From assembly GCA_022600695.1 (NCBI GenBank), contig JAHZJY010000058.1:1-11279 (forward strand): a stretch of DNA of 11,279 bases. The letters are read 5' to 3'. This DNA is from Actinomycetes bacterium (GTDB lineage: Bacteria; Actinomycetota; Actinomycetes; Mycobacteriales; Mycobacteriaceae). How positions within the stretch are numbered: position 1 is the first letter of the stretch; every line of letters begins with the position of its first letter. The notes below the pieces were generated by a model. The model did no database searches and was not told the origin of the DNA. It worked only from the letters and a program-made list of their open reading frames with translations. Below, in pieces: positions 2,292 to 11,279 of this stretch. The position numbers and the translations under genes were made by a program.

Positions 2292-2380
2292 TTATCTCTT
2301 TCGAACAAAGTTAGGGATTTTTTCCACACTTGATCGTCAAGATTTTATCGCGGGAGCAGGTGAATGGTGGAGATATGACG
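2292..2380. promoter_or_regulatory. Divergent promoter region between regulator and desaturase operon
   Basis: This 89-base spacer is clearly richer in A+T than its surroundings, particularly 2291-2350. It must hold the promoters of both divergent units unless transcription enters from elsewhere. On the minus strand TAACTT (complement of 2308-2313) fits the mycobacterial TANNNT -10 pattern, 16 bases before the regulator ATG. No convincing plus-strand -10 was found. For the reductase gene, GGAG at 2369-2372 is the ribosome site; its 8-base spacing favours the ATG at 2381 over the one at 2375. Confidence 0.5.
2329..2341. promoter_or_regulatory. Inverted repeat, candidate operator
   Basis: CTTGA-TCG-TCAAG is a perfect 5-bp inverted repeat with a 3-base centre, placed in the middle of the divergent spacer. 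A second, weaker dyad, CTTT-CGAAC-AAAG, lies at 2298-2310 near the regulator start. Either could bind the adjacent PucR-type protein. Assignment rests on position and symmetry only. Confidence 0.4.
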
Positions 2381-3481
2381 ATGACAGCGCCCCGCACCAA
2401 CTCCGCCGCGATCCTGCGAGGGCAGGTGTTGAGATTGGCCGCGAGGCTGACCACTCCCCTGGTTCCGTCGGACTACCTCGACGTGATCGACCCCCTGCGC
2501 TCGGGTGCAGCACTGCGCGGACGCATCGTGGCGATCAACCCGGAAACCCGTGACGCCGTCACCCTGGTGATCAGGCCCGGCCGCGGATGGCGTGGCCACA
2601 TTCCCGGTCAGTACATCCGGGTCGGCGTCGATGTTGACGGCGTCCGGCAGTGGCGGGCCTACTCGCTCACCTCGGCCGCCGGCCGGGCGGACGGCTGCAT
2701 CACCATCACCGTCAAGGCCATTCCGGACGGCCTCGTCAGCGGCTACCTGGTGCGACGCGCAACAGTCGGCACGGTCATTCAACTCGACCAGGCGGCCGGC
2801 GATTTCACCCTGGCATTCCCGGCCCCGGCAAAGGTCCTGTTCGTCACCGCCGGCAGCGGTATCACCCCGGTGATGGGGATGCTGCGCACCATGCAGCAGA
2901 CCCAGCCCCCGGGCCGCGCCCCCGATACCGTGATCGTGCACTCCGCTCCGACCGCCGCCGACGTCATCTTCGGCGGGGAACTTCGCCGGCTCGCGCGCGA
3001 GGGGCGGTTCCGCCTGGTGGAGATTCACACCGATACCGACGGCGTGCTGGACGCCGGCGATCTTGACGGCCTCGTCGGCGACATCACCGATCGACACACC
3101 TGGGCGTGCGGCCCCGTCGGACTGCTGGACAACCTCGAAACCCATTGGGCCGGTGCCGGTATCGCGAATCGTCTGCACACCGAAAGGTTTCGGCCAGCCG
3201 TCATCGCCACCGGCGAAGGCGGCACAGTGAACTTCACTGCCACCGACACCGCCGTGGAGAACGACGGCACCCGCAGCCTGCTCGACAGCGGTGAGGACGC
3301 CGGAGTCCTGATGCCGTCGGGCTGCCGGATGGGCATCTGCTTCGGCTGTGCGGCCCCGCTGCGCCGCGGCGCGGTCCGCGACCTGCGCACCGGCGAGCTC
3401 ACCACCGCCGCCGAGGGTGACGGCGTCGTCATCCAGACCTGCATCTCCGCAGCCGCGGGGCCCTGCGCCATCGAACTCTGA
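2381..3481 (+). CDS. FAD/2Fe-2S NAD(P)H oxidoreductase (desaturase electron donor, Rv3230c-like)
   Basis: A flavin reductase with a fused plant-type ferredoxin, 366 aa, cytoplasmic or membrane-associated. It should pass electrons from NAD(P)H through FAD and the cluster to the desaturase encoded next to it. In order: an FAD-binding barrel with RAYS (92-95); a nucleotide domain with GSGITP (158-163) and ACGP (242-245); and a C-terminal ferredoxin domain with cluster ligands Cys315, Cys320, Cys323 and Cys354 (C-x4-C-x2-C-x30-C). The segment upstream of the flavin domain (1-45) matches the style of M. tuberculosis Rv3230c, the known partner of DesA3. The ATG at 2381 is chosen because GGAG lies 8 bases before it; ATG 2375 (368 aa) is the alternative. 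It is followed after 24 bases by the desaturase and is clearly in the same operon. All cofactor residues are present. Confidence 0.92.
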   Translation: MTAPRTNSAAILRGQVLRLAARLTTPLVPSDYLDVIDPLRSGAALRGRIVAINPETRDAVTLVIRPGRGWRGHIPGQYIRVGVDVDGVRQWRAYSLTSAAGRADGCITITVKAIPDGLVSGYLVRRATVGTVIQLDQAAGDFTLAFPAPAKVLFVTAGSGITPVMGMLRTMQQTQPPGRAPDTVIVHSAPTAADVIFGGELRRLAREGRFRLVEIHTDTDGVLDAGDLDGLVGDITDRHTWACGPVGLLDNLETHWAGAGIANRLHTERFRPAVIATGEGGTVNFTATDTAVENDGTRSLLDSGEDAGVLMPSGCRMGICFGCAAPLRRGAVRDLRTGELTTAAEGDGVVIQTCISAAAGPCAIEL

Positions 3482-3505
3482 ACGCTCCGGAAAAGGAACA
3501 CCGAT

Positions 3506-4615
3506 ATGACTGCTGTCCAGGAAACATTGACCGACCCGACCACCCACCTCACCGACGCCGACATCGAGGACCTCGGCGCCGAACTCGATGCCATCCGCGA
3601 TCAGGTCATCGGCAGCCGCGGCGAACGGGACGCCGCCTATATCCGCGCCGTGATCGACGCCCAGCGCAAACTCGAACTCGGTAGCCGCGCGGTCCTGCTG
3701 TTCTCGCTGTTCCCACCCGCCTGGCTGGCCGGCACTGTGGGACTGTCGATCTCCAAGATCGTCGAGAACATGGAGATCGGCCATAATGTGATGCACGGTC
3801 AGTGGGACTGGATGCGCGACCCCGCCATCCACTCCACCACGTGGGAGTGGGACAACGCCTCACCGGCAGATATGTGGAAGCACTCCCACAACGAGTTGCA
3901 CCACACCTACACCAACGTCCGCGGTAAGGACAACGACCTGGGCTACGGCATCATGCGGGTCGACGAGGAGCAACCCTGGAAACCGCTGTATCTGATTCAG
4001 CCGCTCTCCAACGCCGTCAACGCCTGCTTCTTTCAGTACGGAATCGCCTTCTACGACCTGGAGGTCGGCAGGTACCTCAAGGGCAGGGTGGAGAAGAAGG
4101 ACTTCGTCAGCCGCGGAAAGAAAGTGCTGGCCAAGATCCGTCGGCAGGCCACCCGCGACTACGTGTTGCATCCGCTGCTGTCCGGCCCCTCGGCCCTGAG
4201 CACGCTGACCGCCAACCTCACCGCCAACCTGGTCCGCAATCTGTGGACGCACTCGGTGATCATGTGCGGGCACTTCCCCGAAGGCGTCCAGACGTTCGCC
4301 AAGGACTCCATCGAGGGTGAGACCCGCGGCCAGTGGTACCTCCGGCAGATGCTGGGCTCCGCCAATATCTCCGGTAGCCCGGCGATGCATTTCATGACCG
4401 GCAATCTGTCCTACCAGATCGAGCATCACCTGTTCCCCGACCTGCCGAGCAACCGCTACCAGGAGATCGCGCCCAAGGTGCGGGAAATATTCGATCGTTA
4501 CGGCCTGACCTACACCACCGGGCCGCTGCCCAAACAGATCGCCTCGGCCTGGACGCAGATCATCCGACTTTCGGTTCCCAACCGAACGACACAGCAAGCC
4601 AAAGGAATCCACTGA
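3506..4615 (+). CDS. Membrane fatty acyl desaturase, DesA3-like
   Basis: An integral-membrane di-iron desaturase, 369 aa, of the mycobacterial DesA3 (stearoyl-CoA delta-9) type. It introduces a double bond into an acyl chain using O2 and electrons from the preceding reductase. The three histidine boxes are intact: H93-x3-H97 in EIGHNVMHGQ, H128-x3-H132-H133 in HNELHHTY, and QIEHH (304-308). An extra conserved His256 lies in CGHFP. Hydrophobic segments lie near 62-85, 160-182 and 235-255. Compared with M. tuberculosis DesA3 (427 aa) it stops soon after the LSVPN region, so it lacks that protein's roughly 60-residue basic C-terminal tail. The ATG is supported by AGGA 8 bases upstream. It overlaps the hydrolase start by one base (TGATG). 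Substrate chain length, regiochemistry and carrier (CoA or ACP) cannot be read from sequence. Confidence 0.93.
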   Translation: MTAVQETLTDPTTHLTDADIEDLGAELDAIRDQVIGSRGERDAAYIRAVIDAQRKLELGSRAVLLFSLFPPAWLAGTVGLSISKIVENMEIGHNVMHGQWDWMRDPAIHSTTWEWDNASPADMWKHSHNELHHTYTNVRGKDNDLGYGIMRVDEEQPWKPLYLIQPLSNAVNACFFQYGIAFYDLEVGRYLKGRVEKKDFVSRGKKVLAKIRRQATRDYVLHPLLSGPSALSTLTANLTANLVRNLWTHSVIMCGHFPEGVQTFAKDSIEGETRGQWYLRQMLGSANISGSPAMHFMTGNLSYQIEHHLFPDLPSNRYQEIAPKVREIFDRYGLTYTTGPLPKQIASAWTQIIRLSVPNRTTQQAKGIH

Positions 4616-5481
4616 TGAGCGAACTCAAACACCTCGACCTGCACGGTGAACGACTGGCCTATGTCGATGAGGGCAGCGGCGAGGTACTGCTACTCCTGCA
4701 CGGAATGGCCGGCAGCTCGCAGACCTGGCGGTCGGTGATCGGACCGCTGTCACGCCGCTACCGGGTCGTCGCGCCGGATCTTCCGGGCCACGGCGAGTCG
4801 GCCAAACCCCGCAGCGACTACTCCCTCGGCGCGTTCGCCGTCCTGCTGCGTGACCTGCTCGACGAACTCGCCGTCACCCGCGCCACCGTCGTCGGGCACT
4901 CACTCGGCGGCGGTGTCGCCATGCAATTCCTCTACCAGCACCCCGACTACTCCGAGCGGCTGATCCTGATCGGCAGCGGCGGCCTCGGCCCAGACGTGGG
5001 CCTGACGCTGCGACTGCTGTCCGCACCCGGTGCGGAGCTGATCATGCCGATCATCGCGCCCCGAAAGGTCCTCAACGCCGGTGAACGGGTGTGGTCGTGG
5101 TTGCGCGGTGCCGGCATCGAATCACCGCGCGGCGAGGAGATCTGGCGGTCTTACAGCACGTTCGCCGACGCCCCCACCCGGCAGGCCTTCCTGCGCACGC
5201 TGCGATCCGTCGTCGATTATCGCGGTCAGGCCGTCAGCGCCCTGAACCGGCTCAACACCAAGACCGAACTGCCGATCATGGCGATCTGGGGCGACAGTGA
5301 CGCCATCATCCCGGTCGAACACGCCTACGCCGCCCAACAGGCCCGCCCCGACATCCGGCTGGAGGTGCTGACCGGCGTCGGACACTTCCCACAGGTGGAA
5401 CGGCCCGCTGAGGTGATTGAGCTGATCGAGGACTTCCTGGCCGCCGCTCCGAGGCCGGCTCACAATCGCTCCGAGGCATAG
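4615..5481 (+). CDS. Alpha/beta-fold hydrolase
   Basis: A 288-aa alpha/beta hydrolase with a complete triad: nucleophile Ser96 in GHSLGG (94-99), acid Asp229 in WGDSDAIIP (or Asp227), and His257 in GVGHFPQVERP. The HGMAG motif (29-33) supplies the oxyanion hole. A cap of about 125-205 separates the strands. No signal peptide is visible, so it is probably cytoplasmic. The ATG is preceded by AGGA 8 bases upstream and overlaps the desaturase stop by one base, so it is translationally coupled to it. That context suggests an ester or thioester hydrolase acting on the lipids or acyl-CoAs that the desaturase handles. The family also includes haloperoxidase-like and ring-cleavage hydrolases, and nothing in the sequence fixes the substrate. 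Its last 22 bases overlap the 3' end of the convergent acyl-AMP ligase gene. Confidence 0.85.
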   Translation: MSELKHLDLHGERLAYVDEGSGEVLLLLHGMAGSSQTWRSVIGPLSRRYRVVAPDLPGHGESAKPRSDYSLGAFAVLLRDLLDELAVTRATVVGHSLGGGVAMQFLYQHPDYSERLILIGSGGLGPDVGLTLRLLSAPGAELIMPIIAPRKVLNAGERVWSWLRGAGIESPRGEEIWRSYSTFADAPTRQAFLRTLRSVVDYRGQAVSALNRLNTKTELPIMAIWGDSDAIIPVEHAYAAQQARPDIRLEVLTGVGHFPQVERPAEVIELIEDFLAAAPRPAHNRSEA

Positions 5482-7133
5482 AGCTCCCGCACCGTCAGCC
5501 TCCGGATCTTCCCGCTGGTGGTGCGCGGGATCCCCGTCCGCGGAACCAGCACGACATCGTCGAGGGAGAATCCGAAGACCGCCCGCACCCGGGTTGTCGC
5601 CTCGGCTCGGAGCCGTTCCCGCTGCTCGGGCTCGCTGACCGCGGTGGCCATCACCGCGACGACACGCTCCCGGCCGCGGCGCTCGTCCGGGGTGCTGAAG
5701 ACGACGACCTGCCCGGGGCCGACCTCTGGCAGCTCGCCGATAGTCCGCTCGACATCGTAGGGCGGCAGGTTCCGGCCCCGGATGATCAGCATCTCCTTGC
5801 TACGGCCCACCACGAATAATTCGCCGTCGTGCAGGAATCCGCGGTCACCGGTGTCATGCCAGCCGCCCGGCGGGTGGCCCACCGTGCCGTCGGACCGGCG
5901 GTAACCGGTCATCACCGAGGCACCGCTGATCCGGATATCGCCCACCGAACCGGGATTCACCTCGACACCGTGGGCGTCGCGCACCGACACCCGCATCCCG
6001 TCGATGGGCGACCCACAGGAGACCTGCGGCCCCCGAACGCTGTCGGAGTCCACCACCCGGACCCGTCCGAAGTTGCCCGGCCCATCCGGGGCCGGTTTCA
6101 GCGCCACTGTGGTGGCCAGCACCGACTCGGCCATCCCGTAGCAGGGCACCAGCGCATCGGTGCGAAGCCCCAGCGGCCCGAAACCGTCGGTGAAGTACCG
6201 CAGGGTGGAGTGCGTGATCGGCTCCGCGCCCACATAGGCGTAACGCAACTCGGCGAGATCGATCCGCGACGCCGGGTCGGGGGCCCGGGCCAGCGCGTCG
6301 GCGGCGGCCCGGTAGGCAAAGGTCGGGCCGGCGGTCACCGTCGAGCCGTGATCGGTCATATGCCGCGGCCACGACAGCGGGTCGCGCAGGAATCCCAGCG
6401 GGGTCATCCACGCGATCGGTGACCCGTAGAGCAGGGCGGCGAGAACCTGGATGAACCCCATATCGTGGTACATCGGCAACCAACTGAACACCCGATCGCG
6501 GCCCCAGCGGGTGCCTATCGCATGCCCGATCACCGCGATGTTGTGCGCGACATTGTGCTGCGACAGCACAACCGCTTTCGGTGCCGATGTCGAGCCGGAG
6601 GTCAGCTGAATATGGTGCGGGTCCGATAGCAACGGCACTGCCCGACCCGCCCGCGACCACGGCCGGGCTTCGGCGATGTCCTCGTAGGCAATCAGCCCGG
6701 GGTGCTCCACGGCAGCCGCGGATCGGTGGTCGGTCAGCACCATCGTGGGGTCGACGACGTCCAGAGCGGCCCGAAGGTGTTGCACTCCTGCGGAATCCGC
6801 CCGCATGGGTGTAGTCGGAGGTGCCACCGCGCAGGGCACGGCGCCGAGCAGCAGAACGGCGAGCAGCGTCACCAGGTATTCCTCGGTATTGGCGGCCACC
6901 ATCAGCACCCGGTCGCCGACGCCGAGACCGTTCCGGTCGAGTGCCCCCGCCCGGCCGCGGACACGCTGCGCCAGGGCCGGACCTGATATCGAGGCGAGGT
7001 GCCTGCGACTGTCGTAGAAGTCGAGTTGCCCGAGTCGCCCGCCGATCAGGAGTCCGTAATCGACTGCGCCGCTTGCCAGCGCGGGCGCGTTCGCCGCTAT
7101 GTGAGCCTGGATGGCCGCCGGGAACGGGGTCAT
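5460..7133 (-). CDS. Fatty acyl-AMP ligase (FAAL/FadD-type)
   Basis: A 557-aa ANL-superfamily adenylating enzyme. It activates a fatty acid with ATP to acyl-AMP; FAAL members pass the acyl group to a carrier protein rather than to CoA. Motifs in order: P-loop LTSGSTSAPKAV (177-188); SWLPMYHDMG (217-226), typical of FAALs; GPTFAYRAAADAL (269-281); YGMAES (332-337); the hinge region DTGD (427-430) and GRSKEML (443-449); GRNLPPYDVE (453-462); and TTSGKIRR with catalytic Lys542. Placement in the FAAL branch is by resemblance of these blocks to mycobacterial FadD26/28/32-type ligases. The FAAL-specific insertion was not confirmed by alignment. The ATG at 7133 overlaps the stop of the acyl carrier gene (ATGA), which argues that the carrier is its acceptor. 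No NRPS or PKS domain is fused. The 3' end overlaps the convergent hydrolase gene by 22 bases. Confidence 0.88.
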   Translation of the reverse strand: MTPFPAAIQAHIAANAPALASGAVDYGLLIGGRLGQLDFYDSRRHLASISGPALAQRVRGRAGALDRNGLGVGDRVLMVAANTEEYLVTLLAVLLLGAVPCAVAPPTTPMRADSAGVQHLRAALDVVDPTMVLTDHRSAAAVEHPGLIAYEDIAEARPWSRAGRAVPLLSDPHHIQLTSGSTSAPKAVVLSQHNVAHNIAVIGHAIGTRWGRDRVFSWLPMYHDMGFIQVLAALLYGSPIAWMTPLGFLRDPLSWPRHMTDHGSTVTAGPTFAYRAAADALARAPDPASRIDLAELRYAYVGAEPITHSTLRYFTDGFGPLGLRTDALVPCYGMAESVLATTVALKPAPDGPGNFGRVRVVDSDSVRGPQVSCGSPIDGMRVSVRDAHGVEVNPGSVGDIRISGASVMTGYRRSDGTVGHPPGGWHDTGDRGFLHDGELFVVGRSKEMLIIRGRNLPPYDVERTIGELPEVGPGQVVVFSTPDERRGRERVVAVMATAVSEPEQRERLRAEATTRVRAVFGFSLDDVVLVPRTGIPRTTSGKIRRLTVRELYASERL

Positions 7134-7447
7134 AAGTCGCCGGAGCGCCGGGCACGGCCGGCGATGCGGGTGCGGATGTAGTCCGCGATGTCGCCGAGCA
7201 CGGTGAACGAGAATGCAGCCTCCTCCTCGATGAACACCGAGAACGTGTCTTCCATTTCGTTCATCAGGGCCATCAAGGTCGCCGAATCGACCGGAAGACT
7301 CAGCAGTGGCGTCTGGGCGTCAAGTCCACCGAGATCGACCTGGGCCAGGTCCTCCGGCGGCAGCAGCTTGATCAGACCGGCCCGGACCGCGTCAAGGACA
7401 TCAGCGGTTTCGGGACGTTGTGACGGGTTCATCGGATCTACTTTCAT
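7130..7447 (-). CDS. Acyl carrier protein
   Basis: A stand-alone phosphopantetheine carrier of about 105 aa. The attachment motif LPVDSATLMALMNEMEDTF has Ser55 after Asp54. It is followed by the usual acidic helix II and by VLGDIADYIRTRI, which matches carrier helix IV. The spacing to the C-terminus is normal for the family. It would hold the acyl chain made by the ligase encoded immediately downstream. The start chosen (ATG 7447) overlaps the permease stop as ATGA. A second in-frame ATG at 7432 gives 100 aa and has a weak AAAG upstream, so it is possible. The stop overlaps the ligase ATG, again as ATGA, so permease, carrier and ligase are translationally coupled. The motif has Pro-Val-Asp-Ser rather than the common Gly-x-Asp-Ser of fatty acid synthase carriers, consistent with a specialised carrier. 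Confidence 0.87.
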   Translation of the reverse strand: MKVDPMNPSQRPETADVLDAVRAGLIKLLPPEDLAQVDLGGLDAQTPLLSLPVDSATLMALMNEMEDTFSVFIEEEAAFSFTVLGDIADYIRTRIAGRARRSGDL

Positions 7448-8550
7448 CGGCGGAACGCGAGTGCGGGGTCGATGCGGGCGACACGGCGCAACGGCAGCAG
7501 CGACCCGAGGGCCGCCATGACGGCGGTGGCCAGTGCCATCCACGCCAGCATCACCGGGGTGACCGCTATCGTGACATCGCCGAGGCGATCACCGATCAGG
7601 AACTGTGTCGCGTACGCGAATGCGGCACCCAGCAGATAGCCCAGCGCGGCAATCAGCGCGGCCTGGCCAAGGACGGTGCGGATCAACTGAACCGGACGGA
7701 CCCCGACGGCGCGCAGGACACCGAAGTCGGCCATCTGCTCATTGGTCGCCGCCAGCACCGTCAGACCGATCAACGCGACGCCGACCAGGGCGGCGATGGC
7801 GATCATGGCCTTCAGCGGCCGGCCGATCATCGAGATGATGATGTCGCGACTGTTCTGGGCGAAGGAGGCCGATGTCAGGGCGTCGACGCCGGGTATCGCG
7901 GCCCGGATCGCCTGTGCGGCCTGATCGGGGGTGTAACCGGGCGCGGGTTGCACCAGAACATAGGACACCCGGTCGCCGGCGCGCATCACGCGTCCTGCGT
8001 CGGGCAGCGAGAGGAATGCGTAGTAGTTACCCAGTGCGGCAGTCTGATCAGACAAGCCGACGACGGTGAAATCCCCATCGACGATCCGGACCGGATCGCC
8101 GAGACCAATCCCGTTCTTGGAAGCCAGCACCCGATCGAGCACCACCTCCCCGGGTGCTGTCACCCCGCTGCCCTGGGCCAGCGACCACGGCCCGCCGACT
8201 CCGGTTTCGGTGTCGTAGCCCAGCACGAAATAGGCGGTCTGCTCACCCTCGTGGATGAAGTCCGACGGCTGGCCGAGGATCGGATCGGCCGAGCCGACCT
8301 CCGGCAGTGCCACCAGTTGCCGTTCGACATCCGCCGGCAGCCACGACACCGCCCGGAACATCTGCGACACCCCGGGTTGCATCACCCACACGGCATTCCG
8401 CGCATGGTCGATGTAGGTGGTTACCTGCTTGGTGGTACCGGCGAAGATACCCGCCATCACCAGCACCAGCAGCACCGCGAAGCCGACGCCGACCACCGAC
8501 AGCAGCAACCGGGTGCGTTCGGCGACCAGGTTTTTCACGGCAACGATCAC
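7444..8550 (-). CDS. MacB/FtsX-type ABC transporter permease (copy 1)
   Basis: A 368-aa inner-membrane permease with the four-helix FtsX/MacB/LolC/DevC layout. TM1 is at about 15-37, a large extracytoplasmic domain at about 40-245, then TM2 about 248-268, TM3 about 293-318 and TM4 about 331-354. The cytoplasmic loop FGVLRAVGVRP (276-286) and the end RRVARIDPALAFR are family hallmarks. Such permeases move lipids, lipoproteins or peptides, or transmit force, rather than form import channels. The GTG at 8550 is supported by a near-perfect AAGGAGGT (complement of 8560-8567). It heads the operon with the carrier protein and acyl-AMP ligase. There is no ATPase in this operon. It is closely similar to the permease at 10186-11279 (about two-thirds identical by eye), so the two may form a heterodimer sharing the ATPase at 9413-10174. 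Confidence 0.9.
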   Translation of the reverse strand: MIVAVKNLVAERTRLLLSVVGVGFAVLLVLVMAGIFAGTTKQVTTYIDHARNAVWVMQPGVSQMFRAVSWLPADVERQLVALPEVGSADPILGQPSDFIHEGEQTAYFVLGYDTETGVGGPWSLAQGSGVTAPGEVVLDRVLASKNGIGLGDPVRIVDGDFTVVGLSDQTAALGNYYAFLSLPDAGRVMRAGDRVSYVLVQPAPGYTPDQAAQAIRAAIPGVDALTSASFAQNSRDIIISMIGRPLKAMIAIAALVGVALIGLTVLAATNEQMADFGVLRAVGVRPVQLIRTVLGQAALIAALGYLLGAAFAYATQFLIGDRLGDVTIAVTPVMLAWMALATAVMAALGSLLPLRRVARIDPALAFRR

Positions 8551-8567
8551 TCGATCGTGACCTCCTT
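8543..8567 (-). promoter_or_regulatory. Strong ribosome site followed by a hairpin holding the permease start codon
   Basis: On the minus strand AAGGAGGT (complement of 8560-8567) is followed at once by a 6-bp inverted repeat, ACGATC-GAGT-GATCGT (8543-8558). The GTG start of the permease begins in its 4-base loop. Translation could be tuned by this hairpin, or the dyad could be a protein site. Both sequence elements are clear; the function is inferred. Confidence 0.5.
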
Positions 8568-8585
8568 ACCAACCTCGTCCACCAT
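8547..8585 (-). CDS. Possible 12-codon upstream reading frame (leader peptide candidate)
   Basis: An ATG at 8585 opens a frame encoding MVDEVGKEVTIE, whose stop overlaps the permease GTG as GTGA. It contains the permease Shine-Dalgarno sequence within it. No good ribosome site precedes it, only GGCGGG, and chance occurrence of so short a frame is quite possible. If translated it would couple to permease translation. Confidence 0.15.
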   Translation of the reverse strand: MVDEVGKEVTIE

Positions 8586-8664
8586 CAGCCCGCCATCAGT
8601 ATGTCGGACGGCACCGGGCCGGAGTTCCCGCTGATTCCCGCCCCGGTGTCGGCGTTGGCGTCGG

Positions 8665-8670
8665 TAGGCT
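8665..8670 (+). promoter_or_regulatory. Leaderless-type -10 box of the transglutaminase-like gene
   Basis: TAGGCT fits the mycobacterial TANNNT -10 pattern. It ends 7 bases before the ATG at 8678, the spacing expected when transcription begins at the A of the start codon. No Shine-Dalgarno sequence is present before this ATG, which agrees with leaderless translation. No -35 hexamer is evident. Confidence 0.5.
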
Positions 8671-8677
8671 TACCGGT

Positions 8678-9406
8678 ATGGGCGATCGCTATCTCGGGGC
8701 CACCACATTGCTCGATATCGACGATCCGCGAGTGCGTGCGGTCGGGGAACGCCGCGGTTGGCCGCAGCTTCCCGAGGCAGACCGGATCGGTGCGGTGTAC
8801 GGGTTCGTGCGTGACGCAATTCCGTTCGGGTACAACGCCTCCGATGACCTGCCGGCCTCGGCGGTGCTCGCTGATGGTTACGGCCAGTGCAATACCAAGA
8901 CGACCCTGCTGATGGCGCTGCTGCGGGCCAACGGGATCGGCTGCCGCTTCCACGGGGCCACGATCGACAAACAACTCCAGCAGGGTGTGATGGTCGGTCC
9001 GTTCTACCGGTTCGCCCCGCGCGACATCATCCACAGTTGGGCCGAGGTTTTCACCGCTGACCGATGGGTGGGCCTGGAAGGCGTCATCCTCGACGAGGCC
9101 TACCTGGCCGGTCTCCGGAATCGGACCGGTCAGCATCAGGGCCCGTTCCTCGGTTACGGCGTCGGCACCGAGGATCTGGCCGACCCGCCGATCGACTGGA
9201 ACGGGACCGACACCGCCATCCAGGCAACCGGGGTCAACCGGGACTTCGGCGTGTTCGACGACCCGGACGCGTTCTACCGCGAGCACGGCGTGAATGCCTC
9301 CGGCGTCAAGGGATTTCTGTATCGCACCATCATGCGCACGGCGATGAACGCCAGGGTCAAGGCGATTAGGCTGACCGGCGACCGGGCCGGCGCTGTTCGG
9401 AGCTGA
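8678..9406 (+). CDS. Transglutaminase-like (cysteine protease fold) domain protein
   Basis: A 242-aa protein with the transglutaminase/papain-like core. Cys71 lies in DGYGQCNTKTTLLMALLRA, His119 in IIHSWAEVF, and Asp139 in GVILDEAY is the probable third residue. The order and spacing match the bacterial transglutaminase-like superfamily, whose members mostly act as proteases, amidases or peptide-modifying enzymes. No signal peptide or membrane segment is seen, so it is probably cytoplasmic. The ATG at 8678 has no ribosome site but has a well-placed -10 box. The gene runs opposite to its neighbours: divergent from permease 1 across 127 bases, and convergent with the ABC ATPase with 6 bases between stop codons. 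It may be a later insertion or part of the system, for example acting on a peptide moiety of the exported product. The substrate is unknown. Confidence 0.82.
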   Translation: MGDRYLGATTLLDIDDPRVRAVGERRGWPQLPEADRIGAVYGFVRDAIPFGYNASDDLPASAVLADGYGQCNTKTTLLMALLRANGIGCRFHGATIDKQLQQGVMVGPFYRFAPRDIIHSWAEVFTADRWVGLEGVILDEAYLAGLRNRTGQHQGPFLGYGVGTEDLADPPIDWNGTDTAIQATGVNRDFGVFDDPDAFYREHGVNASGVKGFLYRTIMRTAMNARVKAIRLTGDRAGAVRS

Positions 9407-9412
9407 CACTTT

Positions 9413-10174
9413 TCAGCACGCGGTTTCCAGGATCCGGCCGTCCTCCAGATGGATCACCCGGTCGGCGATAGCGTCCAGGCGCGGATCGTGCGTGACGATG
9501 ATCACCGCGGCCCCGTGCGCCCGCGCGGCGGCGGCGAGTTGCTCGCTCACCTTGCGGCCGGTGGCGGAGTCAAGGTTGGCGGTCGGTTCGTCGGCCAGGA
9601 TCACCTCCGGTCCCATCGCCAGCGCCCGCGCGGTCGCGACCCGCTGCTTCTCCCCACCGGACAGCTCGGACGGCCGGTGTCCGGCCCGGTGCGCCAGGCC
9701 CAGGGAATCCAGCAGTTCGGTGGCCCGGGCCGTCGCGGCGGACTTTCGCACGCCGGCGTAGCGCAGGGGCACCGCCACGTTCTCGGCGCTGGTCAGCGAA
9801 TTGAGCAGATTGTAGTCCTGGAACAGGAAGCCCAACCGCATCAACCGCAGGGTGGCACGCTCCCGCTCGGTCAGCGTGCGAGCATCCCGGCCGCCGACGC
9901 TCACCGTGCCGGAATCGGGTGTCAGCAACAGGCCCATCACCAGCAGGGCGGTGGTCTTGCCGCCGCCGGAGGGTCCCATCACCAGCACCACCTCGCCGCG
10001 GTCGACCGACAGCGAGATCCCGCTCAATGCCTGCACCGCGGCCTCACCCGTGCCGTAGTGATGGGTGACATCGGCTAATGCCAGCACCGGGTCGGCCGTG
10101 TCCGGCAGCACCGATCGGTGGCAGCGGCCGCATCGGGGCGGCGCCGCGTCTACGTGACATACCGGGCAACGCAT
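9413..10174 (-). CDS. MacB/LolD-type ABC transporter ATPase with N-terminal zinc ribbon
   Basis: A 253-aa ATPase that would power the FtsX-like permeases from the cytoplasmic face. Motifs: Walker A GPSGGGKT (67-74), Q-loop Gln119, signature LSGGEKQR (171-178), Walker B VILADEP with Glu196, D-loop NLD (200-202) and H-loop His229. The QDYNLLNSLTSAENVAVPL stretch is typical of the MacB/LolD/FtsE branch. Before the ABC domain, residues 1-25 hold C3-x2-C6 and C15-x2-C18, a compact zinc-ribbon knuckle that is not standard in this family. The start at 10174 is set by AGGAAGGA (complement of 10180-10187), 5 bases upstream. Extending the frame further would overlap the permease and lose this site. It follows permease 2 with 11 bases between, so the two are one operon. 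It is the only ATPase in view for both permeases. Confidence 0.92.
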   Translation of the reverse strand: MRCPVCHVDAAPPRCGRCHRSVLPDTADPVLALADVTHHYGTGEAAVQALSGISLSVDRGEVVLVMGPSGGGKTTALLVMGLLLTPDSGTVSVGGRDARTLTERERATLRLMRLGFLFQDYNLLNSLTSAENVAVPLRYAGVRKSAATARATELLDSLGLAHRAGHRPSELSGGEKQRVATARALAMGPEVILADEPTANLDSATGRKVSEQLAAAARAHGAAVIIVTHDPRLDAIADRVIHLEDGRILETAC

Positions 10175-10185
10175 CAGTGTCCTTC

Positions 10186-11279
10186 CTAGTGCCGGAACGC
10201 GAGGGCGGGGTCGATCCGGGCGACGCGGCGGGCGGGCAGCACCGATCCCAGCACCGCCATCACCGCGGTGCCCACCGCCACCACCAGCAGCATGGTCGGG
10301 GTGATCGCGATCGAGACATCGCCCAGACGGTCGCCGACCAGGAACTGCGCGGCGTAGGCGGCGCCGGCGCCCACCAGATAGCCCAGCGTCGCGATGACCG
10401 CCGCCTGGGTCACCACGGTGCGCCACAGTTGCGGTGAACGCACACCCAGCGCGCGCAGGACGCCGAAGTCTCGCACCTGCTCGGCGGTCAGCGCCCACAT
10501 GGTCAACCCCACCAGGGCGATGCCCACCAGCGCGGCGATACCGATCATCGTCTTCAGCGGACGGCCGATCATCTTCACGATGATGTCGCGGCTGTTGTCG
10601 GCGAAGACAGCCGACGTCAAGGCGTCCACGCCGGGGACGCCGGTCCGGATGGCCGCCGCCAACTGCTCCGGGCTGTCACCGGCCCGGGGCTGGGTCAGAA
10701 AGTAGGACACCCGGTTGCCCGCGCGCAGCAGCCGGGCGGCGTCCCGAAGCGTGATGAACGCGTAGTAATTCGTCGCCGCAGCGGTCTGATTGGACAGGCC
10801 CACGACGGTGAAGTCCTCATCGATCAGCTGAACCGTGTCGCCGGGGCGGATGTCGTTCTTGGCGGCCAGAATACGGTCCAGGACGACCTCACCGGGTTGA
10901 TCGATGTTGCGCCCCTGCGCCAGCGACCACGGCCCACCGACACCGGTGGCAGTGTCGTAGCCGAGGACGAAGTAGGCGCTGTGGGTGCCGTTGTGGACGA
11001 AGTCCGATGGCAGTCCCAGGATCGGATCGGCGGAGGCAACCTCGGGCAGCGCGGTCAGCCGCTGTTCGTCGTCGGCGGGCAACCAGGAAACCGCCTTGAA
11101 CATCTGGGAAACCCCGGGTTGCGTCACCCACACGGCGTCCCGGGAATTGTCGATATAGGTGGTCACCCCGCGCGTGGTGCCGACGAAGATACCCGCCATG
11201 ATCAGGACCAGCAGCACCCCGAGCGCGACCCCGAGCACCGAGAACCCGAGACGGGTCTTCTCGGCGAGAAGGTTCTTGA
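10186..11279 (-). CDS. MacB/FtsX-type ABC transporter permease (copy 2, 5' end cut by window)
   Basis: The reading frame stays open to the right edge of the window. Its first visible residues KNLLAEKTRL align with KNLVAERTRL near the N-terminus of permease 1, so only about five residues are missing. An internal GTG at 11238 should not be taken as the start, because it would remove the first part of TM1. The architecture is as in copy 1: one N-terminal helix, a large extracytoplasmic domain, three C-terminal helices, the FGVLRALGVRS loop and the end RRVARIDPALAFRH. Long shared blocks include QPGVSQMF, AVSWLPAD, GVGGPWSLAQG, PGVDALTSA and NSRDII. It is joined to the zinc-ribbon ATPase (11-base gap). 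It probably pairs with copy 1 as the second half of the transporter; two homodimers are the alternative. Confidence 0.9.
   Translation of the reverse strand, partial: KNLLAEKTRLGFSVLGVALGVLLVLIMAGIFVGTTRGVTTYIDNSRDAVWVTQPGVSQMFKAVSWLPADDEQRLTALPEVASADPILGLPSDFVHNGTHSAYFVLGYDTATGVGGPWSLAQGRNIDQPGEVVLDRILAAKNDIRPGDTVQLIDEDFTVVGLSNQTAAATNYYAFITLRDAARLLRAGNRVSYFLTQPRAGDSPEQLAAAIRTGVPGVDALTSAVFADNSRDIIVKMIGRPLKTMIGIAALVGIALVGLTMWALTAEQVRDFGVLRALGVRSPQLWRTVVTQAAVIATLGYLVGAGAAYAAQFLVGDRLGDVSIAITPTMLLVVAVGTAVMAVLGSVLPARRVARIDPALAFRH

Follow-up and report, generated by a model that had tools for sequence, protein, structure and literature searches.

What does a fatty acyl-AMP ligase (FAAL) do beside one half of an ATP-binding cassette (ABC) exporter, when FAALs usually feed polyketide synthase (PKS) or nonribosomal peptide synthetase (NRPS) lines? 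The question is posed by an 11,279-nucleotide stretch of DNA (the window) from an Actinomycetes bacterium of the Mycobacteriaceae, in which genes for an FtsX-type permease, an acyl carrier protein (ACP) and a FAAL overlap. We found that the cluster extends beyond the window into genes for NifS, NifU and LuxE and that it sits in the copper-starvation region where other mycobacteria hold isonitrile chalkophore (nrp) genes. From gene content, genomic context and a shared promoter motif, we see an even chance that the window is the downstream half of a putative copper-starvation biosynthesis-and-export cluster.

A cluster divided between two contigs

The window is the entire contig C48 of a fragmentary genome (G000; 2.82 Mb, 86% complete), and the named members of the genus in our comparison set are Mycobacterium and Mycobacteroides. 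Its last 141 bases are identical to the start of contig C29 (locus L005), which contributes NifS, NifU and LuxE genes upstream of permease 1, so that in this genome the cluster is split over C48 and C29. The join is supported by the relatives L093, L096, L099, L100 and L101, each of which carries the genes in this order on one contig. Extension of the window to the right, as the original prediction had advised, thus brought to light NifS, NifU and LuxE as well as SigC and copper genes. The relevant features are the following.

5460..7133 (-), FAAL, the operon's last gene; PF00501, best PDB match 3pbk, orthologues (57-66%) beside the same genes
7130..7447 (-), ACP; PF00550 phosphopantetheine domain, DS serine conserved, ATGA overlap on each side
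7444..8550 (-), permease 2; Pfam MacB_PCD and FtsX, placed by the permease tree
8603..8628 (-), promoter-like site GGAACY-N16-CGAC upstream of permease 2, lacking the last Y of the motif described below
8678..9406 (+), divergent transglutaminase-like gene; PF01841 and alignment
9413..10174 (-), ABC ATPase with an N-terminal zinc ribbon; PF00005, start and ribbon inspected
10186..11279 (-), permease 1, its start on C29; Pfam MacB_PCD and FtsX
11139..11279 (unstranded), 141-base overlap with C29
C29 159-about 1325 (-), NifS, a cysteine desulfurase; Pfam Aminotran_5
C29 1303-1701 (-), NifU-like protein; Pfam NifU_N
C29 1705-2844 (-), LuxE-family protein; PF04443
L005:2914-4815 (-), PGRS-like secreted protein, directly upstream of LuxE
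C29 4879-5364 (-), DUF4395 gene
C29 11597-12169 (+), SigC; NF007231 equivalog, 242.9 bits against a cut-off of 219

Several statements of the original prediction were borne out at this level. The two ATGA overlaps joining permease 2, ACP and FAAL were located at 7444-7447 (permease 2/ACP) and 7130-7133 (ACP/FAAL), the near-duplicate permease that lies upstream with the ATPase is 71% identical to permease 2, and the ribbon (CPxC...CGRC) is seen in the ATPase sequence. The best PDB match of the FAAL, 3pbk, is a fatty acyl-adenylate ligase, and FadD32, FadD23 and FadD28 are also in the list. The absence of PKS and NRPS genes held as well: no condensation, ketosynthase or adenylation motif was found in the window and C29 by a motif scan alone, no NRPS was present by Pfam gene content, and no NRPS/PKS cluster appeared in 19 sequences scanned for motifs. 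The single large adenylation open reading frame (ORF) of that scan belongs to L103 and encodes a carboxylic acid reductase; two isolated motif matches were seen in L203.

The second half of the cluster changes the picture. NifS retains the pyridoxal phosphate lysine and the catalytic cysteine loop in an alignment to 4isy, and its closest relatives are cysteine desulfurases. The NifU-like protein retains C34, D36 and C60, but its third scaffold cysteine is Val, as in every actinobacterial row of the alignment except that of L130, a contig of a metagenome-assembled genome (MAG); the Bacillota rows and the Chloroflexota MAG retain the cysteine. The three conserved cysteines that mark IscU and SufU are hence incomplete in the NifU-like protein of the cluster, and because the third is replaced by Val, we favor a role in sulfur carriage over ordinary iron-sulfur (Fe-S) assembly. 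LuxE matches Photobacterium LuxE, and its conserved C353 aligns with Cys364 of that protein, which we take to be the acyl-accepting site. In the lux system LuxE hands the acyl group to LuxC. Since no LuxC-like gene was seen among the cluster genes and several Bacillota cassettes have no visible ACP, NifU or NifS would be the closest candidate within the conserved core to accept the acyl group on a thiol, and we therefore propose an acyl-sulfur product. In all five loci inspected (L005, L093, L096, L099 and L100) the C-terminal tail of the PGRS-like protein is rich in Met, Cys and His; a tail rich in Met and Cys may fit copper, although this is only suggestive.

Conservation within and beyond mycobacteria

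LuxE at 79% identity or more was found in 22 of 396 genus genomes (one a partial match) and a near-full-length permease at 69% or more in 24 of 396 (one with a stop). Both were present in 21 genomes (Fisher p about 1e-30, kinship ignored). The 22 leave aside LuxE matches below 79% (G031, G273, G033, G370) and a second, partial match of G032, and the 24 leave aside partial or about 33% permease matches (G013, G098, G103, G116, G242). In an order-wide sample, 3 of 397 genomes, the source genome included, passed E 1e-60 with the LuxE profile. Two of the genomes with weaker matches, G031 and G273 (L088, L089), carry a diverged LuxE (58-60%) whose match ends before the conserved CC motif, followed by NifS (62%) with no NifU match.

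Permease, ACP and FAAL are kept together in 16 of the 19 mycobacterial LuxE loci with enough downstream sequence, namely five two-permease loci, ten chelonae-type loci and M. persicum, in which one permease-ATPase pair precedes LuxE. The 19 omit the loci clipped by contig ends (L094, L095, L097, L098, L114, L144), the source genome, and G081 and G245; loci with two identifiers are counted once here and in the counts of 10 and 11 below. The exceptions are M. lacus, with pieces of ACP and FAAL after the ATPase, M. simulans, in which LuxE and the start of NifU run into the end of FAAL, and G129. Coupling of acyl activation with the exporter, the core of the original prediction, is thereby upheld and extends to a Kineosporiaceae MAG and a Clostridiales MAG; neither of the two contrary outcomes that had been named, rare co-occurrence of the ligase/carrier pair with the transporter genes or an adjacent NRPS/PKS cluster, was encountered. 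Decayed versions were seen in L028, L085, L202 and L203, which comprise M. simulans (internal loss), M. lacus (ACP/FAAL pieces), and G081 and G245; the latter two hold permease, ACP and FAAL only, without LuxE, and the G245 permease has a stop.

A conserved set of FAAL, ACP, two FtsX permeases and a zinc-ribbon ATPase had also been named as a search target, and this was found in part. FAAL, ACP and a permease recur together, but the second permease does not: L093, L096, L099, L100, L101 and the source genome have two, and all ten distinct chelonae-type loci carry a complete LuxE-NifU-NifS-permease-ATPase-ACP-FAAL set with a single one. Nor is the ribbon constant, being present in the window and absent from the chelonae-type relatives, L086 and L100. 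In the permease tree, by which G112, G074 and G243 were called chelonae-type, the window's two permeases trace to a duplication inside the two-permease clade, with weak support for the Perm2 branch (80/67); separate recent duplicates are seen in G129 and in G182 (M. persicum).

When 84,980 species genomes were scanned by pattern, at least 53 LuxE loci came up. Beyond mycobacteria, NifU and NifS follow LuxE in Streptomyces, Mangrovihabitans, Actinokineospora, the Kineosporiaceae MAG, a Herpetosiphonaceae MAG, several Bacillota, the Clostridiales MAG and Priestia plasmids. FAAL and ACP accompany this core in the fully flanked Actinomycetota and Chloroflexota loci and in Priestia, Cytobacillus and Metabacillus; by tblastn, neither was found in L133-L135, L137 and L140, save for one partial 26% FAAL match in L135. 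The exporter is of the FtsX-type ABC class in mycobacteria and in the Kineosporiaceae and Clostridiales MAGs and of the major facilitator superfamily (MFS) in L110-L112, L131, L133-L135, L137, L140 and L141 (by Pfam for L140, by similarity or by eye for the others). Because the exporter varies beside a constant core, a small exported product seems likely. Streptomyces and relatives and several Bacillota add two U32-type proteins, of which Pfam detects Peptidase_U32 in the first only, and a protein with the acyl-CoA dehydrogenase (ACAD) fold.

Some further arrangements were recorded. In L131, L111, L112 and L113 two genes that may form a sensor pair are divergent from LuxE. One encodes a BlaI-type repressor, with PF03965 detected in each of three cases tested, and the other an M48-like membrane protease, which in L113 has no Pfam match. 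Arthrobacter, Pseudarthrobacter and Citricoccus (L115, L117-L126, L128, L129) have LuxE-like genes (53-60%) without adjacent NifU or NifS, and in L124, read by eye, the LuxE-like gene stands beside SbnB-like, TauD-like and carrier-domain genes.

The transglutaminase-like gene, which the original prediction did not list, occurs in the two-permease clusters and in two Lysinibacillus cassettes, and its protein had no PDB match. Those cassettes (L137, L140) read LuxE-NifU-NifS-U32-U32-ACAD-MFS, followed by a transglutaminase about 41% identical to that of the window. A second transglutaminase-like ORF lies at the far end of C29 (L005:15683-16492, +), preceded by an N-formylglutamate-amidohydrolase-like ORF read by eye. 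An FMO-type (flavin-containing monooxygenase) flavoprotein follows FAAL in 4 of the 10 chelonae-type loci (L081, L102, L106, L107). The left half of the window holds genes for MenB, a PucR-type regulator, a ferredoxin reductase, a desaturase and a hydrolase, for which no counterpart was found near the 53 LuxE loci except weak hydrolase matches (23-25%) and one weak MenB match. The ferredoxin reductase, fatty acid desaturase and alpha/beta hydrolase genes are in tandem at 2330-5481 (+), the last overlapping the end of FAAL by 22 bases, tail to tail. A Jam-type alkyne cassette has its desaturase within the FAAL-ACP operon. This assignment was rejected for our locus, where the desaturase (3506-4615) is on the opposite strand and has no homologue near the 53 LuxE loci.

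Copper genes and a shared promoter motif

Beyond LuxE, C29 carries genes for the PGRS-like protein, DUF4395, zf-HC2, DUF5134, CtaG, a CtpB-like copper P-type ATPase and SigC. Every one of the 11 distinct cluster loci examined has a homologue of one or more of SigC, CtpB, CtaG, DUF5134 and zf-HC2. L099 has a SigC piece at the contig end, and this set is represented by zf-HC2 alone in L100 and by a 53% CtpB-like ATPase alone in L204. PMC9600254 and PMC7924339 describe nrp (ppe1-Rv0101) as the mycobacterial diisonitrile lipopeptide chalkophore operon, with FadD10, nrp and PPE1 required in copper starvation (PMC9600254), and CtpB has been linked to copper-limited growth (PMC9147137).

The nrp-type cluster was followed in our genomes through FcoT. 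This protein (PF10862), taken here as a marker of that cluster, occurs in 87 of 396 genus genomes and gave no match in the source genome (86% complete). Of 12 FcoT loci, six have clear copies of SigC/CtpB/CtaG/DUF5134/zf-HC2-type genes and three have partial CtpB matches only; the other three, which are chelonae-type, have none of these copper genes beyond one 24% SigC match.

The upstream regions of ctpB, DUF4395 and LuxE have in common the motif GGAACY-N16-CGACY. A SigC consensus had given scattered matches in nine loci and was replaced by this motif, read from the upstream regions themselves. The 29 cluster entries (488 kb; the window and L005 counted separately) contain 40 sites, and 23 of the entries have at least one. 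The 12 FcoT loci (240 kb) contain 29, with every locus positive. Each of two control sets, 14 loci around other FAALs (270 kb) and 20 around other LuxE genes (372 kb), gave a single site. The last group includes the Chloroflexota MAG L116, source of its single match. Of the six negative cluster entries, four (the window, L095, L101 and L114) have lost the upstream part to truncation; the other two are L086 and L028. In G000, 4 of 20 sites fall on C29 (Poisson p 3e-6), among them those at 5411-5437 and 4851-4877, preceding the PGRS-like, DUF4395, DUF5134 and copper ATPase genes by 36-88 nt from the likely start codons, those of DUF5134 and the ATPase being taken inside the listed ORFs. All ten chelonae-type loci have the motif 74-84 nt before LuxE; these ten sites are nearly one sequence and thus not independent. 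With other spacers it is present in M. lacus, M. persicum, G081, G245 and the two-permease loci. Some sites are not in front of a gene.

A number of observations weigh against a SigC-controlled copper cluster. The window holds only the imperfect copy listed above (the full motif is expected there 0.035 times by shuffling), G000 as a whole shows a modest excess (20 sites, the reversed pattern giving 12), no exact motif was found in G129 or M. simulans, the G129 copy having a 15-base spacer, and none at the non-mycobacterial loci examined beyond the L116 match. Motif and cluster are not fully independent, because the motif was read partly from the cluster's own upstream regions, although the control loci are independent. 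Its -35 half is shared with other extracytoplasmic function (ECF) sigma factors, and the sigma factor is for that reason one that we infer. A literature search found no paper confirming the motif. In the stretch fetched, the CtpB-like gene (53%) is in only 2 of the 10 chelonae-type loci (L127 and L078, the latter the same place as L204), and CtaG and SigC are in none of them; heavy-metal ATPases occur in only 3 of 34 non-mycobacterial loci (L131, L138, L139). G129 gave no ACP or FAAL match, and the mycobacterial relatives are non-independent samples. Mutual exclusion of the cluster and the nrp cluster was rejected, since 10 of 22 LuxE genomes have FcoT (odds ratio 3.2, p 0.014). The positive association across the genus is due to nine chelonae-type genomes that carry LuxE and FcoT alike. 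In the remaining 13 LuxE genomes, FcoT is found only in M. simulans, with its decayed cluster (genus rate 87/396), which is weak evidence for replacement of the nrp cluster.

Proposed function, alternatives and known systems

Gene content, conservation, genomic position and the shared promoter motif are shown at the level of sequence; for the species concerned we infer control by SigC, and likewise the chemistry, metal and cargo. Taking these together, we put forward, at evenly balanced probability, a SigC-controlled, NRPS-free cluster that would make and export a sulfur-bearing acyl metallophore. When copper is scarce, SigC would activate both the cluster and the copper ATPase gene. FAAL would adenylate a fatty acid and load it onto ACP, and NifS would draw sulfur from cysteine as a persulfide and pass it to the NifU-like carrier. 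LuxE would activate an acyl group and pass it on to a partner with a thiol, probably the sulfur carrier, yielding a thiocarboxylate-like acyl-sulfur product able to bind Cu(I). The FtsX-type ABC pump would export this product, and copper could re-enter via the neighboring CtpB/CtaG-type proteins.

The same genes could serve competition instead. A sulfur-containing acyl antibiotic or copper ionophore, made in copper starvation and exported by the same pump with no role in nutrient scavenging, would suit the patchy spread across phyla, the exchangeable exporters and the Priestia plasmid carriage, all of which fit a specialized metabolite; we hold it to be unlikely, as a motif and a position shared with ctpB and nrp-type operons fit copper uptake better. 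Somewhat less probable still is a sulfur or Fe-S maintenance operon for copper stress, in which NifS and NifU supply Fe-S clusters or their repair while the acyl enzymes and the pump independently remodel envelope lipids. NifS and NifU are indeed close to Fe-S assembly proteins, but nearly every actinobacterial row has lost the third scaffold cysteine, and the LuxE, NifU and NifS genes stay linked in different phyla, accompanied by FAAL and ACP or by exporters.

In the original prediction, the acyl-carrier product is loaded onto, or modified for, something that the transporter extrudes. Put more specifically, acyl-ACP would acylate what the transporter carries, for example an envelope lipid or a lipoprotein. 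The operon overlaps and the relation of the permease to MacB and LolC speak for this, yet it leaves LuxE, NifS and NifU unused although they are conserved with the cluster, and MFS pumps replace the exporter elsewhere. A ligase and carrier acting alone on the cargo do not account for the cluster's other half, which is predicted to mobilize sulfur and adds a second acyl-activating enzyme, and we consider this explanation improbable. That the FAAL-ACP pair supplies a PKS or NRPS encoded at another place in an incomplete genome, the usual role of FAALs, and lie beside the pump by accident is hardly credible given the adjacency in 16 of 19 loci with no NRPS/PKS cluster seen nearby.

The metallophore reading can be widened, and here we are more tentative. 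LuxE-NifU-NifS may form the core of a new NRPS-free, sulfur-based class of acyl metallophores across Actinomycetota, Bacillota and Chloroflexota, with lineage-specific exporters; in mycobacteria, the chelonae group included, it might be a second, SigC-linked chalkophore system that adds to the isonitrile one or takes its place. Mycobacterial copper scavenging has so far been tied to one chemical type, the isonitrile lipopeptides. If the proposal is correct, a second, sulfur-based system with the same promoter motif would change the view of copper nutrition in environmental and chelonae-group mycobacteria, a function would be assigned to the LuxE-NifU-NifS cassette of several phyla, and a likely small-molecule cargo could be named for the FtsX-type ABC pump. 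No description of this gene set was found among the papers listed for our literature queries (for one query the first 15 of 2,627), whose coverage stopped short of preprints and most subscription journals; of two papers listed on acylsulfenic and thiocarboxylate compounds, neither deals with it.

Several known systems come close to parts of the cluster. Thiocarboxylic-acid natural products such as thioplatensimycin (PMC6006322) resemble the proposed product in type. With the MacB, LolCDE and DevCA exporters the cluster shares a permease with MacB_PCD and FtsX and a LolD/DevA/MacB-like ATPase, but part of the cluster ATPases bear a zinc ribbon; membership was rejected, the scores being below every curated cut-off shown, and no Pfam match to a membrane-fusion adaptor of the MacAB/DevBCA type was found among the cluster genes scanned. 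A cysteine desulfurase with a scaffold-type carrier recalls IscS-IscU/SufU, from which the cluster differs by the Val in the mycobacterial NifU and by the location of the genes inside a biosynthetic operon. Bioluminescence LuxE (7xc6) belongs to the same PF04443 family, with the acyl-accepting cysteine aligned and conserved, whereas our cluster has NifU and NifS and no LuxC-like gene was seen in it. In setting the cluster resembles the nrp operon, which includes an ACP. Both begin with a repeat-type protein gene, PPE1 in nrp and the PGRS-like gene here. Both have a FAAL (FadD10 in nrp) and lie near ctpB, and the promoter motif here is the same as that of FcoT-type loci. The cluster described here differs in that it lacks an NRPS, with no FcoT match in the genome, and has LuxE, NifS, NifU and an FtsX-type ABC exporter.

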